Shown here piece after piece: positions 34,157 to 38,716 of a DNA stretch of 64,000 nt (its first letter is position 1; every line of letters begins with the position of its first letter). The DNA comes from Lysobacteraceae bacterium. GTDB lineage: Bacteria; Pseudomonadota; Gammaproteobacteria; Nitrococcales; AK92. A model generated the notes under the pieces. The model ran no database searches and had not been told where the DNA came from. It saw only the letters and a list, made by a program, of their open reading frames with translations. Location of the stretch: the NCBI GenBank assembly GCA_012523465.1, contig JAAYIK010000015.1:124001-188000 (forward strand), written 5' to 3'. The position numbers and the translations under genes were made by a program.

Positions 34157-35497
34157 ATGAGACTCACGATTTTTGGCACCGGCTATGTCGGTTTGGTGAC
34201 GGGTACCTGCTTTGCCGAGGTGGGCAACGACGTCGTTTGCGGCGACGTCGACGAGGACAAGATCGCCTGCCTCAACCGGGGTGAGATCCCGATTTACGAG
34301 CCAGGTCTGGAAGCGCTGGTCCGCAAGAATCAAGAAGCCGGCCGGCTGCGCTTCACCACCGATCCCGACGAGGCCGTGCGGCATGCCGCGCTGCAGTTCA
34401 TCGCGGTGGGCACGCCGCCGGATGAGGACGGCTCGGCCGACCTGCGCTACGTGCTGGAGGTGGCCCGCACCATCGCCGAGCGCATGGACGACTACAAGGT
34501 CATCATCGACAAGTCCACGGTGCCGGTGGGGACGGCCGACCGGGTGCGCGCCCAGGTGCAGGAAGTGCTCGATGCGCGCGGGGTGGATGTGCCGTTCGAT
34601 GTGGTGTCCAACCCGGAGTTCCTGAAGGAAGGCGCGGCGATCGATGACTTCATGAAGCCGGATCGCATCATCGTCGGCACGGACAATCCGCGCACGGCCG
34701 AGCTGCTGCGGGCCCTGTACTCGCCCTTCAACCGCAGCCACGACCGGGTGCTGGTGATGGACGTCCGCTCGGCCGAGCTGACCAAATACGCCGCCAACGC
34801 CATGCTGGCGACCAAGATCAGCTTCATGAACGAGCTCGCCAACCTGGCCGAGCGGCTGGGCGCGGACATAGAGAAAGTGCGCATCGGCATCGGCTCGGAC
34901 ACCCGGATCGGCTACCATTTCATCTATCCGGGCGTCGGCTACGGCGGCTCCTGCTTCCCCAAAGACGTCCAGGCGCTGACGCGCACCGCGCAGGAGGTGG
35001 ATTACGAGCCTAAGATCCTGCTGGCGGTGGAGGAGGTCAACCGGCGCCAGAAGCGGCTGCTGTTCAAGAAGATCGAGCGCTTCTTCGACGGAGATCTCAA
35101 GGGCCGCACCTTCGCGCTCTGGGGGCTGGCGTTCAAACCCAATACCGACGACATGCGCGAGGCGCCCAGCCGGGTGCTGATGGAATCCTTGTGGGAGGCG
35201 GGCGCCACGGTGCGCGCTTACGACCCGCAAGCCATGCAGGAGTGCCGCCGCATCTACGGCGACCGGCCGGACTTGATTCTCTGCGAGCATCCCGAGGATG
35301 TGCTGGAGGGCGCCGATGCGCTGGTGATCGTCACCGAATGGCAGGTCTTCCGCAGCCCGGACTTCGAGCGCATCCGCAACACGCTCAAGCAGCCGGTCAT
35401 CTTCGACGGTCGCAATATCTACGACCCGGTGCAGATGGCCAAGATGGGGCTGCACTACATTGCCATCGGCCGCCCGATCATCCCGCCGCAAGCGTGA
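34157..35497 (+). CDS. ugd: UDP-glucose 6-dehydrogenase
   Basis: 446 residues. The NAD-binding motif GTGYVG is at 7-12, and the catalytic cysteine is Cys266 in GGSCFPKD. It oxidises UDP-glucose twice to UDP-glucuronate, a building block for capsule or exopolysaccharide, and the substrate for the epimerase at 23434. Length and domain order (NAD domain, dimer helix, UDP domain) are normal. The ribosome binding site is GAGAAGG. It is followed by a mosaic 500-base gap with tandem hairpins. Confidence 0.95.
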
Positions 35498-35997
35498 TGT
35501 CGATCGTGGCGCCGGGGTCGGCATCCTCCTCGCCCTGAAGGGCGAGCAGTCCCGTTGCGCCCAGGGGCCATTTTGGCCGCCCCTGGGCCGCTTCGGCGAG
35601 CCCTAGTTTCCGACTGTTGGCCTGCCGGCCCAAACCGCGCAGGCCATCCAGCTGTGCCCCGCCCTGCGCTCGCCTCGGTTCCATCCCGCGAGGAGGTAGC
35701 ACCTCCCCCAATCCGTTCGCCCGGCAACCCCGCTCTGGTTGCGCTCGAGTCAGCCGGCGCTTGCAGTGCAAGAGGTCCATGGGGGCAACGTCCGGCGTTC
35801 TGTGGGCGCGCCGCCGACAAGGCTCTGATGTTGCTTTCTCCAAGACGGCTCGCATCTTGGGCATGCGGTTGATTTCCAGCCAGTACATGACGTATGCCTT
35901 GTACTGGCGCCAAATGAACTACTCCCACCAAGCCTTGCGGCGCAGTTTGGTAAACTAACCCTAAACGGAGAAGGTGGGCAATTCGGAGGATCCCCCA
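35498..35997. other. Mosaic 500-base gap after ugd
   Basis: No gene was supported. Two hairpins follow ugd in tandem: CTCGCCC/GGGCGAG at 35529-35546 and CCAGGGGC/GCCCCTGG at 35561-35586. Further on, a perfect nine-base inverted repeat GCCAGTACA/TGTACTGGC spans 35879-35908. Long weak frames run on both strands without a start signal. The stretch resembles degenerate mobile or repeat DNA, but I could not identify the source. Confidence 0.5.
35879..35908. repeat. Perfect inverted repeat
   Basis: GCCAGTACA at 35879-35887 and its exact complement at 35900-35908 are separated by 12 bases, 90 bases upstream of the small membrane ORF. It could be an operator or a stem of a mobile-element end. Confidence 0.6.
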
Positions 35998-36243
35998 ATG
36001 ACCCTGGAAACCGGGGCAATCATTGGAATGATCATTGGAATGATCGGCGTCATCGCTTTGACCGCGTTCGCTATTTGGTCGAAGCTCGACGAAGACAGGG
36101 GCGTCGCCAGTCAAGACGCCAGGATTAATTACTCAGGAGACAGAGGCCGGCAGCAATACCGGCCTTTTTTGTCTGGACTCCGGGATTTGGATGCCTCTTG
36201 CGTTTTTCGCGGCTCGCTAGCGGAGTCGAAGTACATCGTTTGA
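35998..36243 (+). CDS. Small single-helix membrane protein, uncertain 3' end
   Basis: 81 residues from the ATG at 35998, which has GGAGGA ten bases upstream. Residues 7-28 (AIIGMIIGMIGVIALTAFAIW split) form one membrane helix, with a charged tail after it. An intrinsic-type terminator (36144-36170) lies inside the open frame, so most transcripts would end about 49 codons in. Either the C-terminal 30 codons are not part of the normal product, or a frameshift has removed an earlier stop. I do not recognise the family. Confidence 0.45.
   Translation: MTLETGAIIGMIIGMIGVIALTAFAIWSKLDEDRGVASQDARINYSGDRGRQQYRPFLSGLRDLDASCVFRGSLAESKYIV
36144..36170 (+). terminator. Terminator inside the small membrane ORF
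   Basis: AGGCCGG (36144-36150) pairs with CCGGCCT (36159-36165) around an eight-base loop and runs into six T residues. It is a good intrinsic terminator. Confidence 0.8.
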
Positions 36244-36269
36244 TTAAGGCTTCAGCAATCTGGATTTGC

Positions 36270-36515
36270 TTAACCAGCGTTAGCAGGCGTCCACTGGCTT
36301 CTGCCATCCAGGAGCCAGTCTATAAAGCGCTTGGGTTCCTGGTTCCATGGAATATTCTCGGATGACTCAAATTTAGCCACCAGACGGCTTGCTGTCCGCT
36401 GATAGAGTTCTTTGGTTTTTTGGGTGCGAGTTTTTTTGACGAACTCACCATTCCCACCGTTATTGCGGTCCCATAGGGGTGTTATTACTGCGTTATGTGT
36501 TGTCGTGGGCGACAC
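36270..36515 (-). pseudogene. Truncated integrase-like N-terminal fragment
   Basis: About 81 codons from a GTG at 36515 to a TAA at 36272-36270. The stretch EFVKKTRTQKTKELYQRTAS, then FIDWLLDGRSQWTPA, resembles the SAM-like N-terminal domain of tyrosine recombinases/phage integrases. It stops abruptly where the following core domain should begin, and I find no catalytic Arg/His/Tyr region nearby. It is likely the remnant of an integrated element. Family assignment is from pattern memory, without alignment, so it should be tested. Confidence 0.5.
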
Positions 36516-36536
36516 AAAAAGTTGTCGTGGGCGACA
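36500..36536. repeat. Tandem palindromic 15-bp direct repeat (operator-like)
   Basis: TTGTCGTGGGCGACA occurs at 36500-36514 and again at 36522-36536, centre to centre 22 bases. Each copy contains the inverted repeat TGTCG/CGACA around TGGG. Two identical palindromes about two helix turns apart look like a cooperative repressor site. They lie at the 5' end of the integrase fragment. Confidence 0.75.
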
Positions 36537-36841: not shown

Positions 36842-38248
36842 ATGCTCGTTCCGGTCATTTTGTCCGGCGGCTCCGGCACCCGGCTTTGGCCGCTCTCGCG
36901 CAAGCATTACCCCAAGCAATTCATTCCGCTGACCGGTGAGCACTCGCTGTTCCAGAACACCTTGGAGCGGATCGCACCGCTGCGGCAGCAGGGGCCGCTG
37001 GTGGTGGTGTGCAATCACGAGCACCGTTTCATGGTGGCAGAGCAGTTGCAGGCGTGCGGGGAGCGGGAGGCGCGCAGCCTACTCGAGCCGGTGGCGCGGA
37101 ACACGGCGCCGGCGGTGGCGGTGGGAGCGCTGGAAGCGCTCAAGGAGGTGCCCGATGCCGTGCTGCTGGTGCTGCCCGCCGACCACGTGATCCGGGATCG
37201 GGAAGCGTTTCTCGCCGCGGTGGAGCTGGGGCGGGAGGCGGCGCTCGGCGGCAGTCTGGTGACCTTCGGCGTCGCGCCGACGCGTCCTGAGGCGGGCTAC
37301 GGCTACATCAAGGCGGCCCAGGTGGAAGGCGCCGTGCGGCCGGTGGAGCGTTTCGTCGAGAAGCCAGACCTGCAGACGGCGCAGGAATACGTGGACTCGG
37401 GCCAGTATTTCTGGAACAGCGGCGTGTTCATGTTCCGGGCGGATCGCTTCCTCGAAGAGCTGGCCGCCTTGGAGCCGGACATGCTGGCCGCCTGCCGGGC
37501 GGCCAGCGAAAGGGCCAGCCGTGACCTGGATTTCATCCGGCTGGATGCCGAGGCCTTCGCCGCCAGTCCCAGCAGCTCCGTCGATTACGCGGTGATGGAA
37601 CGCACCCGGCATGCCGTGGTGGTGCCGCTGGAGGCCGGCTGGAGCGATGTCGGCTCCTGGGATGCGCTGCAGGAGGTGGGCCCGGCCGACGAGCATGGCA
37701 ACGTCGTCCTGGGGGACGTGGTCTGCGCCGACAGCAGCGACTGCTACATTCGCTCCGAAAGCCGGCTGGTGGCCGTGCTCGGTGTGCGCAACCAGGTGGT
37801 GATCGAGACTCCGGATGCGGTGCTGGTCGCCGACCGCAGCCGGGCGCAGGAGATCAAGGCGCTGGTGGAGCGGCTGCAGCGCGAGGGGCGGGGCGAGTGC
37901 GAGGCGCACCGGCGGGTGCTGCGTCCCTGGGGGTCCTACGAAGGCATCGCCAGCGCCGATCGCTTCCAGGTCAAGCGCATCGTCGTGCGGCCCGGCGCTA
38001 GGCTCAGCCTGCAAATGCACCATCATAGGGCCGAGCATTGGATCGTGGTTCGCGGCACGGCGCGGGTCCATAAGGGCGAAGAAAGCTTTCTCTTGTCGGA
38101 AGATCAATCCGCCTATATTCCATTAGGAACCGTTCATCGGCTCGAGAATCCAGGCGTCATTCCGCTGGAACTAATCGAAGTTCAGACCGGCAGTTATCTC
38201 GGCGAGGACGATATTTTGCGCTTCGATGATAGCTACGGCCGCGCCTGA
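36842..38248 (+). CDS. manC: Mannose-1-phosphate guanylyltransferase / mannose-6-phosphate isomerase
   Basis: 468 residues from the ATG at 36842 with GGAGG close upstream. The N-terminal nucleotidyltransferase domain has GGSGTRLWPLSR at 8-19, and the VEKPD loop near 175. The C-terminal cupin (from about residue 355) has RPWGSYEGI and MHHHRAEHWIVVRG, the type II phosphomannose isomerase. This bifunctional AlgA/ManC/XanB-type enzyme makes GDP-mannose, with ManB supplying mannose-1-phosphate. It was chosen as the real start because the open frame back to 36785 has no signal. It is followed by the four-helix gene. Confidence 0.93.
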   Translation: MLVPVILSGGSGTRLWPLSRKHYPKQFIPLTGEHSLFQNTLERIAPLRQQGPLVVVCNHEHRFMVAEQLQACGEREARSLLEPVARNTAPAVAVGALEALKEVPDAVLLVLPADHVIRDREAFLAAVELGREAALGGSLVTFGVAPTRPEAGYGYIKAAQVEGAVRPVERFVEKPDLQTAQEYVDSGQYFWNSGVFMFRADRFLEELAALEPDMLAACRAASERASRDLDFIRLDAEAFAASPSSSVDYAVMERTRHAVVVPLEAGWSDVGSWDALQEVGPADEHGNVVLGDVVCADSSDCYIRSESRLVAVLGVRNQVVIETPDAVLVADRSRAQEIKALVERLQREGRGECEAHRRVLRPWGSYEGIASADRFQVKRIVVRPGARLSLQMHHHRAEHWIVVRGTARVHKGEESFLLSEDQSAYIPLGTVHRLENPGVIPLELIEVQTGSYLGEDDILRFDDSYGRA

Positions 38249-38299: not shown

Positions 38300-38716
38300 A
38301 TGTCAGCTGTCATTCGGAATCTCAACGAAGTCAAGGCCTACCGTGCCGCTTTCCATTTGCAGCAGCGCATCTACGTCCTGAGCCGTCATTGGCCGCGGGA
38401 AGAAGCTTATTCGCTGACGGCGCGTCTGCTGCGCTCGGTCCGCGCCATCGGGGCGGATCTCGCGCAGCTGTGGACGCGCCGGCCGGAGCCGGCGGAATTC
38501 ACGGCGCGGCTCAGCATCGTCGATGCCGAGGTCGCCGAAACCGTGCACTGGCTGGAAACGGCCTATCGGTGCGGTTATCTGGAAAAAGAGCAGTACCAGA
38601 GCCTAATAAAAGAGTGCGATGCCTTGTGCAATATGCTGACCGCCATGGCCAGAGCGAGCCAGAAAATCAGCGTGGAGGACGAAGCCGAACATAAAGTGTT
38701 CTGGCTGGATCGATAG
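38300..38716 (+). CDS. Four-helix-bundle protein (S23/bAvd-like)
   Basis: 138 residues, all helical, with an ATG at 38300 preceded by CGGAGG. The pattern YRAAFHLQQRIYVLSR, then ARLLRSVRAIGADLAQ and an ETVHWLETAYRCGYL helix matches the family known from 23S rRNA intervening sequences and from retroelement avidity proteins. Stand-alone copies such as this occur near sugar-nucleotide and polysaccharide genes. No reverse transcriptase or rRNA intervening sequence is near. A role as a scaffold or regulator is only inference. Confidence 0.8.
   Translation: MSAVIRNLNEVKAYRAAFHLQQRIYVLSRHWPREEAYSLTARLLRSVRAIGADLAQLWTRRPEPAEFTARLSIVDAEVAETVHWLETAYRCGYLEKEQYQSLIKECDALCNMLTAMARASQKISVEDEAEHKVFWLDR

Follow-up and report, generated by a model that had tools for sequence, protein, structure and literature searches.

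Two exact tandem copies of a short palindrome stand in front of the remnant of an integrase (tyrosine recombinase) gene in the window analysed here, a stretch of 64,000 nucleotides of DNA from a Lysobacteraceae bacterium. The explanation that we favour, with a probability of roughly 0.45, is that this doublet represents cis-acting protein-binding sites of a decayed plasmid-type integrase module. Each palindrome would have been the site of one dimer, and the pair would have formed an operator over the integrase promoter. We infer that the doublet once bound a protein and that its role was a transcriptional one. The positions of the features are given in Table 1.

Table 1. Positions of the palindrome doublet, the integrase relic and the flanking host genes in the window
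Feature	Position	Strand	Remarks
Palindrome copy 1, TTGTCGTGGGCGACA	36500..36514	+	arms TGTCG/CGACA (5 bp), core TGGG
A-rich spacer CAAAAAG	36515..36521	.	38 bp also readable as one quasi-dyad centred here
Palindrome copy 2, TTGTCGTGGGCGACAA	36522..36537	+	6-bp arms TTGTCG/CGACAA
Integrase relic part 1, KKTRTQKTKELYQRTASRLVAKF...WLLDGRSQWTPA	36282..36451	-	27.3 and 19.3 bits with two profiles
Insert splitting the integrase, ~370 bp	35913..36281	.	small plus-strand ORF, intrinsic-terminator-like hairpin
Integrase relic part 2, WRQYKAYVMYWLEINRMPKMRAVLEKA...	35799..35912	-	second-ranked of 836 frames with both profiles
UDP-glucose 6-dehydrogenase-like gene (presumably ugd), upstream host gene	34157..35497	+	ORF list; synteny
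ManC-type mannose-1-phosphate guanylyltransferase / mannose-6-phosphate isomerase, downstream host gene	36842..38248	+	family search; synteny

The sequence TTGTCGTGGGCGACA is found exactly at 36500-36514 and at 36522-36536 of the plus strand, in the same orientation and with a period of 22 bp. Each copy contains the 5+4+5 palindrome TGTCG-TGGG-CGACA. An earlier note on this DNA had described exact tandem palindromes with TGTCG/CGACA symmetry at 22-bp spacing, and a repeat search of the window bears this out and extends the identity between the copies to 16 nt (36499-36514 and 36521-36536). The TGGG cores of both copies are in direct, not inverted, orientation. As in a dimer operator, the sites are two-fold symmetric, and their 22-bp period is suited to cooperative binding. 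When up to 3 mismatches were allowed, TTGTCGTGGGCGACA had 8 matches in the window versus 1.8 expected, a number that none of 100 shuffles reached; the exact ones among the 8 are the two doublet copies only.

Does this pattern call for a bound protein at all? The doublet may have arisen by slippage duplication of one palindrome, and intergenic DNA commonly contains short tandem duplications. The window holds 147 single 5+4+5 palindromes, and the doublet has neither a second copy in the genome nor conservation in the relatives compared, all of which would suit a neutral tandem duplication of one chance palindrome in non-coding DNA with no protein bound to it. We think this unlikely, since a tandem pair of identical 5+4+5 palindromes was present once in the real window and in none of 60 windows simulated with a model that contains no slippage, and since the two copies show zero drift between them and are positioned just 5' of the integrase start.

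A terminator scan listed the minus-strand sequence TTGTCG-CCCA-CGACAA (6 pairs), which is followed by CTTTTTG. The weakness of the stem and the modest minus-strand fold (-11.7 kcal/mol, z -2.4) nevertheless make it very improbable that the doublet is a transcription terminator or RNA hairpin of that strand; besides, no gene ends at the doublet, which is located in front of the integrase start. No RNA family matched the region (best E 0.53). A promoter scan, which covered sigma-70-like sites only, found no such promoter at the doublet region.

The doublet sits within a gap of 1344 bp between the ugd-like gene and manC, both of which are on the plus strand. Between roughly 35800 and 36600 the G+C content of the gap is ~50%, compared with ~65% around it, and the doublet is located near the GC edge of this inserted DNA. 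In a genome of the same genus (G001) and in one of the same family (G002), ugd and manC are adjacent, with ~450 bp and ~170 bp between them respectively, and neither interval contains such a palindrome. A DNA search of 59 related genomes with the gap returned short matches only (25-37 bp). Taken together, these comparisons indicate that the gap DNA is a gain or replacement in this lineage. DNA similarity searches of the region against plasmids and against phages gave no match. Two further elements were observed at the borders of the locus. After ugd, the hairpin stretch CTCGCCCTGAAGGGCGAG at 35522-35573 matches G003, G008 and G012 at 88-90% over 31-34 bp and is likely a dispersed element. Directly 3' of manC there is a gene of the 23S rRNA intervening-sequence / bAvd-like family (38300-38716, plus strand), which is kept in the same-genus genome.

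The integrase fragment that the earlier note had placed beside the doublet came out as the top frame of the window with two profiles built from different sequences. A hand-written integrase consensus, used as a plasmid query, led to a natural family of 38 records, several of which are annotated 'site-specific integrase'. With the first profile, made of the N-termini of 12 plasmid integrases, relic part 1 scored 27.3 bits, whereas none of 2000 shuffles exceeded 8.4; the consensus query was shaped by the fragment, and this profile and its score could lean towards it. The next best of the 836 window frames (at least 40 aa) was the minus-strand frame 35481-35918 with 10.3 bits; the continuation expected for the gene, WRQYKAYVMYWLEINRMPK (WRQYKAYVMYWLE), is in this frame. 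The second profile, intended to reduce the bias of the first, was made of 10 other members, none of them in the first, out of 198 plasmid records found with the natural member L202, a query that itself came from the consensus search. These ten were hand-picked for diversity, with most Pseudomonas, all Xanthomonas and all Acinetobacter records left out. The same two frames ranked at the top, with 19.3 and 10.1 bits, while the best shuffle had 5.8.

Profile positions 4-54 and 60-87 are covered by the two relic pieces, which lie on one strand, in the right order and ~370 bp apart. Profile positions beyond 87 do not align, and the relic is without the catalytic half (R...K...RHQ...GH...Y). The likely ATG of the integrase is at 36451-36449; its frame differs from that of the conserved part, from which an A7 tract separates it. 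The doublet lies 49-86 bp upstream of this ATG, which agrees with the upstream position that it had been assigned before. Judging from the alignments, the minus-strand pieces are a real integrase fragment and not a working integrase. The frame break near the start, the insert and the loss of the catalytic half indicate that the gene is dead in three ways. Pfam, PHROGs and NCBIfam gave no match for the minus-strand integrase frame. The fragment stayed below the cut-off of Pfam Phage_integrase and of other curated families, as did the four intact relatives that were tested. Direct searches with the short integrase fragment yielded chance-like matches only, and an AlphaFold2 model of a 71-residue fragment (two helices, mean pLDDT 66.9) was too weak to use.

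The insert between the two pieces has features of its own. Its edge beside part 2 carries GGTGGGAGTAGTTCA (minus strand) and resembles an IS200/IS605-type right end, and 25 bp of this edge (24 identical) recur in a genome of the same genus (L040:1501-1525). A small membrane-like ORF within the insert, starting MTLETGAIIGMIIGMIGVIALTAFAIW (35998-36243, plus strand), runs into a strong terminator-like hairpin (36142-36167, plus strand, fold z -5.0).

The closest likeness of the relic is to plasmid tyrosine recombinases ('site-specific integrase') of DotD/TraH-type plasmids, with which it has in common the N-terminal pattern RT-x-x-T-x3-Y...WL...(T)WRQY-x-A. Unlike these, the window gene is a split pseudogene whose catalytic half is missing, and it is chromosomal, with no conjugation genes beside it. 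The 12 family members that were read are 27-36% identical to the first member. In the alignment of 12 intact relatives (A2), the positions fitting the catalytic R, K, RH, H and Y, which we take to be the residues that act in tyrosine-recombinase catalysis, are invariant. The neighbourhood is annotated for 20 relatives: 13 adjoin DotD/TraH, DotI, conjugative DNA transfer or T4SS ATPase genes, one adjoins a 'type II secretion protein E' in the same layout, and six are without such neighbours, while two further records are unannotated there. The A2 profile matched 5 of the 369 genomes of the class at E <= 1e-10, the window's genome not being among them, and no viral relative of the integrase family was found with it. 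A prophage or toxin-antitoxin origin had been suggested for the doublet; plasmid relatives that are mostly next to DotD/TraH-type genes, and a region that matches no phage DNA, argue against it. Another family member, in G221, is present in two pieces ~1.4 kb apart (L213 and L215), possibly another interrupted copy.

Repeats upstream of the gene are also seen in these relatives. Exact direct repeats of at least 11 bp within 120 bp were found in the upstream 600 bp of 10 of the 24 relatives, compared with 1 of 24 gene bodies and 10 of 250 Markov sequences, the window being left out of the first two counts (11/25 and 2/25 with it). The remaining 14 relatives had no such repeat. For these counts the upstream region of a relative began at the annotated or conserved-region start, not at a mapped promoter, and for the window it began 10 bp inside the likely ATG. 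The ten positive relatives include six (L203, L206, L207, L209, L210 and L224) that have one motif, TGTTGACA, in common and so are not independent. Other upstream repeats are TAGGTCACCTGTGAC (L208) and ACTCGCTGTAACAC (L201), as well as those in L222 and L223. The TGTTGACA repeats are 37-105 bp apart upstream of the integrases, and on four of five plasmids they are mostly absent elsewhere on the record. Record-wide, the share of CNWTGTTGACAM matches that lie at the integrase was 2/2, 3/5, 3/4 and 4/5 on four plasmids, 3/12 on a fifth (W05) and 2/6 in genome G079; two plasmids with other or no motifs had no matches. The upstream counts and the record-wide counts together indicate that iterated upstream sites linked with the integrase occur often in these sequences but not in all of them, and that the motif changes between lineages. 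Compared with the window doublet, the relatives' upstream motifs differ in sequence, are mostly non-palindromic and lie further out (-150 to -580). None of the relatives examined has a TGTCG-N4-CGACA doublet upstream.

These repeats allow a broader reading, to which we give little weight and which we judge quite unlikely. The DotD/TraH-linked integrases would form a family with iterated upstream cis sites of its own (TGTTGACA, TAGGTCACCTGTGAC, CTCGCTGTAACAC and others), used for plasmid resolution or chromosome entry; the window would then show an integration footprint between ugd and manC, and the doublet would be the surviving att-like or accessory sites.

A related question is whether the integrase itself acted on the doublet. 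Taken as a single dyad, the 38 bp consist of 15-bp arms, symmetric at 11 of 15 positions, around the 8-bp spacer CAAAAAGT, with only 5 contiguous bp beside the spacer. Because of this dyad the doublet folds as one long hairpin on the plus strand (z -4.6; 0/200 shuffles equal). Core sites of tyrosine recombinases consist of inverted arms of 9-13 bp around a spacer of 6-8 bp, and att or plasmid-resolution sites often adjoin the integrase gene. A core-type site of the integrase, left over from attachment or resolution, would be compatible with the hairpin, with the position near the GC edge of the inserted DNA and with a perfect dyad (12-bp arms, 8-bp spacer) that L201 has 476 bp upstream of its integrase. 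However, the inner arms match over 5 bp only, most relatives are without such a dyad, and the repeat search of the window found no second copy of the doublet at another junction of the inserted DNA. The direct orientation of the TGGG cores, moreover, is what would be expected for two copies of one dimer site. This explanation is therefore an unlikely one in our estimate. Direct cores, 22 bp apart and immediately 5' of the start codon, fit two dimers placed next to each other, and a dimer operator is the function that we prefer, with a recombination core site as a less likely one; the sequence by itself is compatible with both.

In the whole genome (2,995,147 bases in 35 contigs), the only exact copies of TTGTCGTGGGCGACA are the two of the doublet, which makes it likely that the doublet is an orphan, as had been supposed. 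With up to 2 mismatches there were 16 matches genome-wide, compared with 24 for a reversed-pattern control. A common dispersed repeat, which the earlier note had named as evidence against its reading, is ruled out for this genome by these counts. A regulon was also rejected, because the genome has no further exact site. Genome sites of TGTCGNNNNCGACA numbered 8, versus 2 for the control, and six of the 8 are single. Of 144 related genomes, 6 contain the 14-bp motif TGTCGTGGGCGACA, with a single occurrence in each one other than the window's genome. The exact doublet is absent from the genome_contigs collection and from the viral contigs. A search of 398 genomes of the phylum with up to 2 mismatches matched 6 genomes, and apart from the window's own all of these matched at 2 mismatches. 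Tandem palindromes in the genome collection gave 51 stretches, which were compared by core, spacing and covering frame only; many are within long coding frames and may be chance. In the literature searched, no published operator or motif had the doublet sequence in any of its spellings, in line with the earlier statement that it matches no operator that can be named.

In view of a possible phage source of the motif, we searched viral contigs for tandem TGTCG-N4-CGACA with a gap of 5-20 bp. The search returned 22 stretches, compared with 3 for a permuted control pattern, and 16 of the 22 are inside genes that PHROGs score as replication initiation or O-like (L032, L123-L131, L134, L135, L138, L139, L141 and L143). 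For this assignment individual scores were obtained for 19 covering genes; L140 and L142 were included only in the scan of a 35-member batch, and L137 had no covering frame of 100 aa. The periods are mostly 19-24 bp, the sites are mostly downstream of the HTH part, and copies with the same arms often have different cores. In lambda O, the iterons of the initiator are inside the initiator gene. By analogy, the viral tandem sites look like candidate in-gene origin iterons of initiators. Such lambda-O-type iterons resemble the window doublet in being tandem short palindromes with the same TGTCG-N4-CGACA arms, and L032 shows the same 22-bp period and identical cores. Nevertheless, a remnant of a phage replication origin, with iterons of an O-like initiator, is a minor rival and an improbable one, because the window's genome has no HTH_36 match and the doublet, unlike the phage iterons, is in no initiator gene. 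Nor is there an initiator family at the doublet site or phage DNA similarity in the region, and the neighbour is a plasmid-type integrase. One of the viral stretches is of another kind: L137:131-177 has two identical TGTCGTCAACGACA palindromes 33 bp apart, beside a TATAAT-like stretch and outside any 100-aa frame, and looks like a phage operator rather than iterons.

According to the operator explanation, which we prefer, an integrase module such as those found on plasmids that have DotD/TraH-type conjugation genes would have entered the ugd-manC gap in this lineage and then decayed. What is left of the gene would be the two minus-strand pieces, split by the ~370-bp insert and deprived of the catalytic half, and the doublet would have survived in front of the likely start codon. 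One dimer would have occupied each 16-bp palindrome. With about two helical turns between them and the same orientation, the pair of dimers would have acted cooperatively over the integrase promoter as an operator. Cooperative operators for dimers of the repressor type have the same general layout, in which a pair of identical palindromes, spaced by about two turns of the helix, precedes a start codon. The window doublet differs from them in that no candidate for a regulator gene was found next to it, as had been noticed before, and today it is probably orphaned.

As a genomic relic the locus is of an ordinary kind; what is unusual is the doublet. If our explanation is right, it is a case in which plasmid-type integrase DNA has left a legible footprint in a chromosome. 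It would also draw attention to a family of plasmid recombinases that is poorly annotated, with several members labelled 'hypothetical protein', and that has integrase-linked upstream repeats. The palindrome architecture that recurs in phage replication-initiator genes offers a simple pattern for locating candidate phage origins. The leads worth following are the repeats at the plasmid integrases and the iteron pattern seen in phages.
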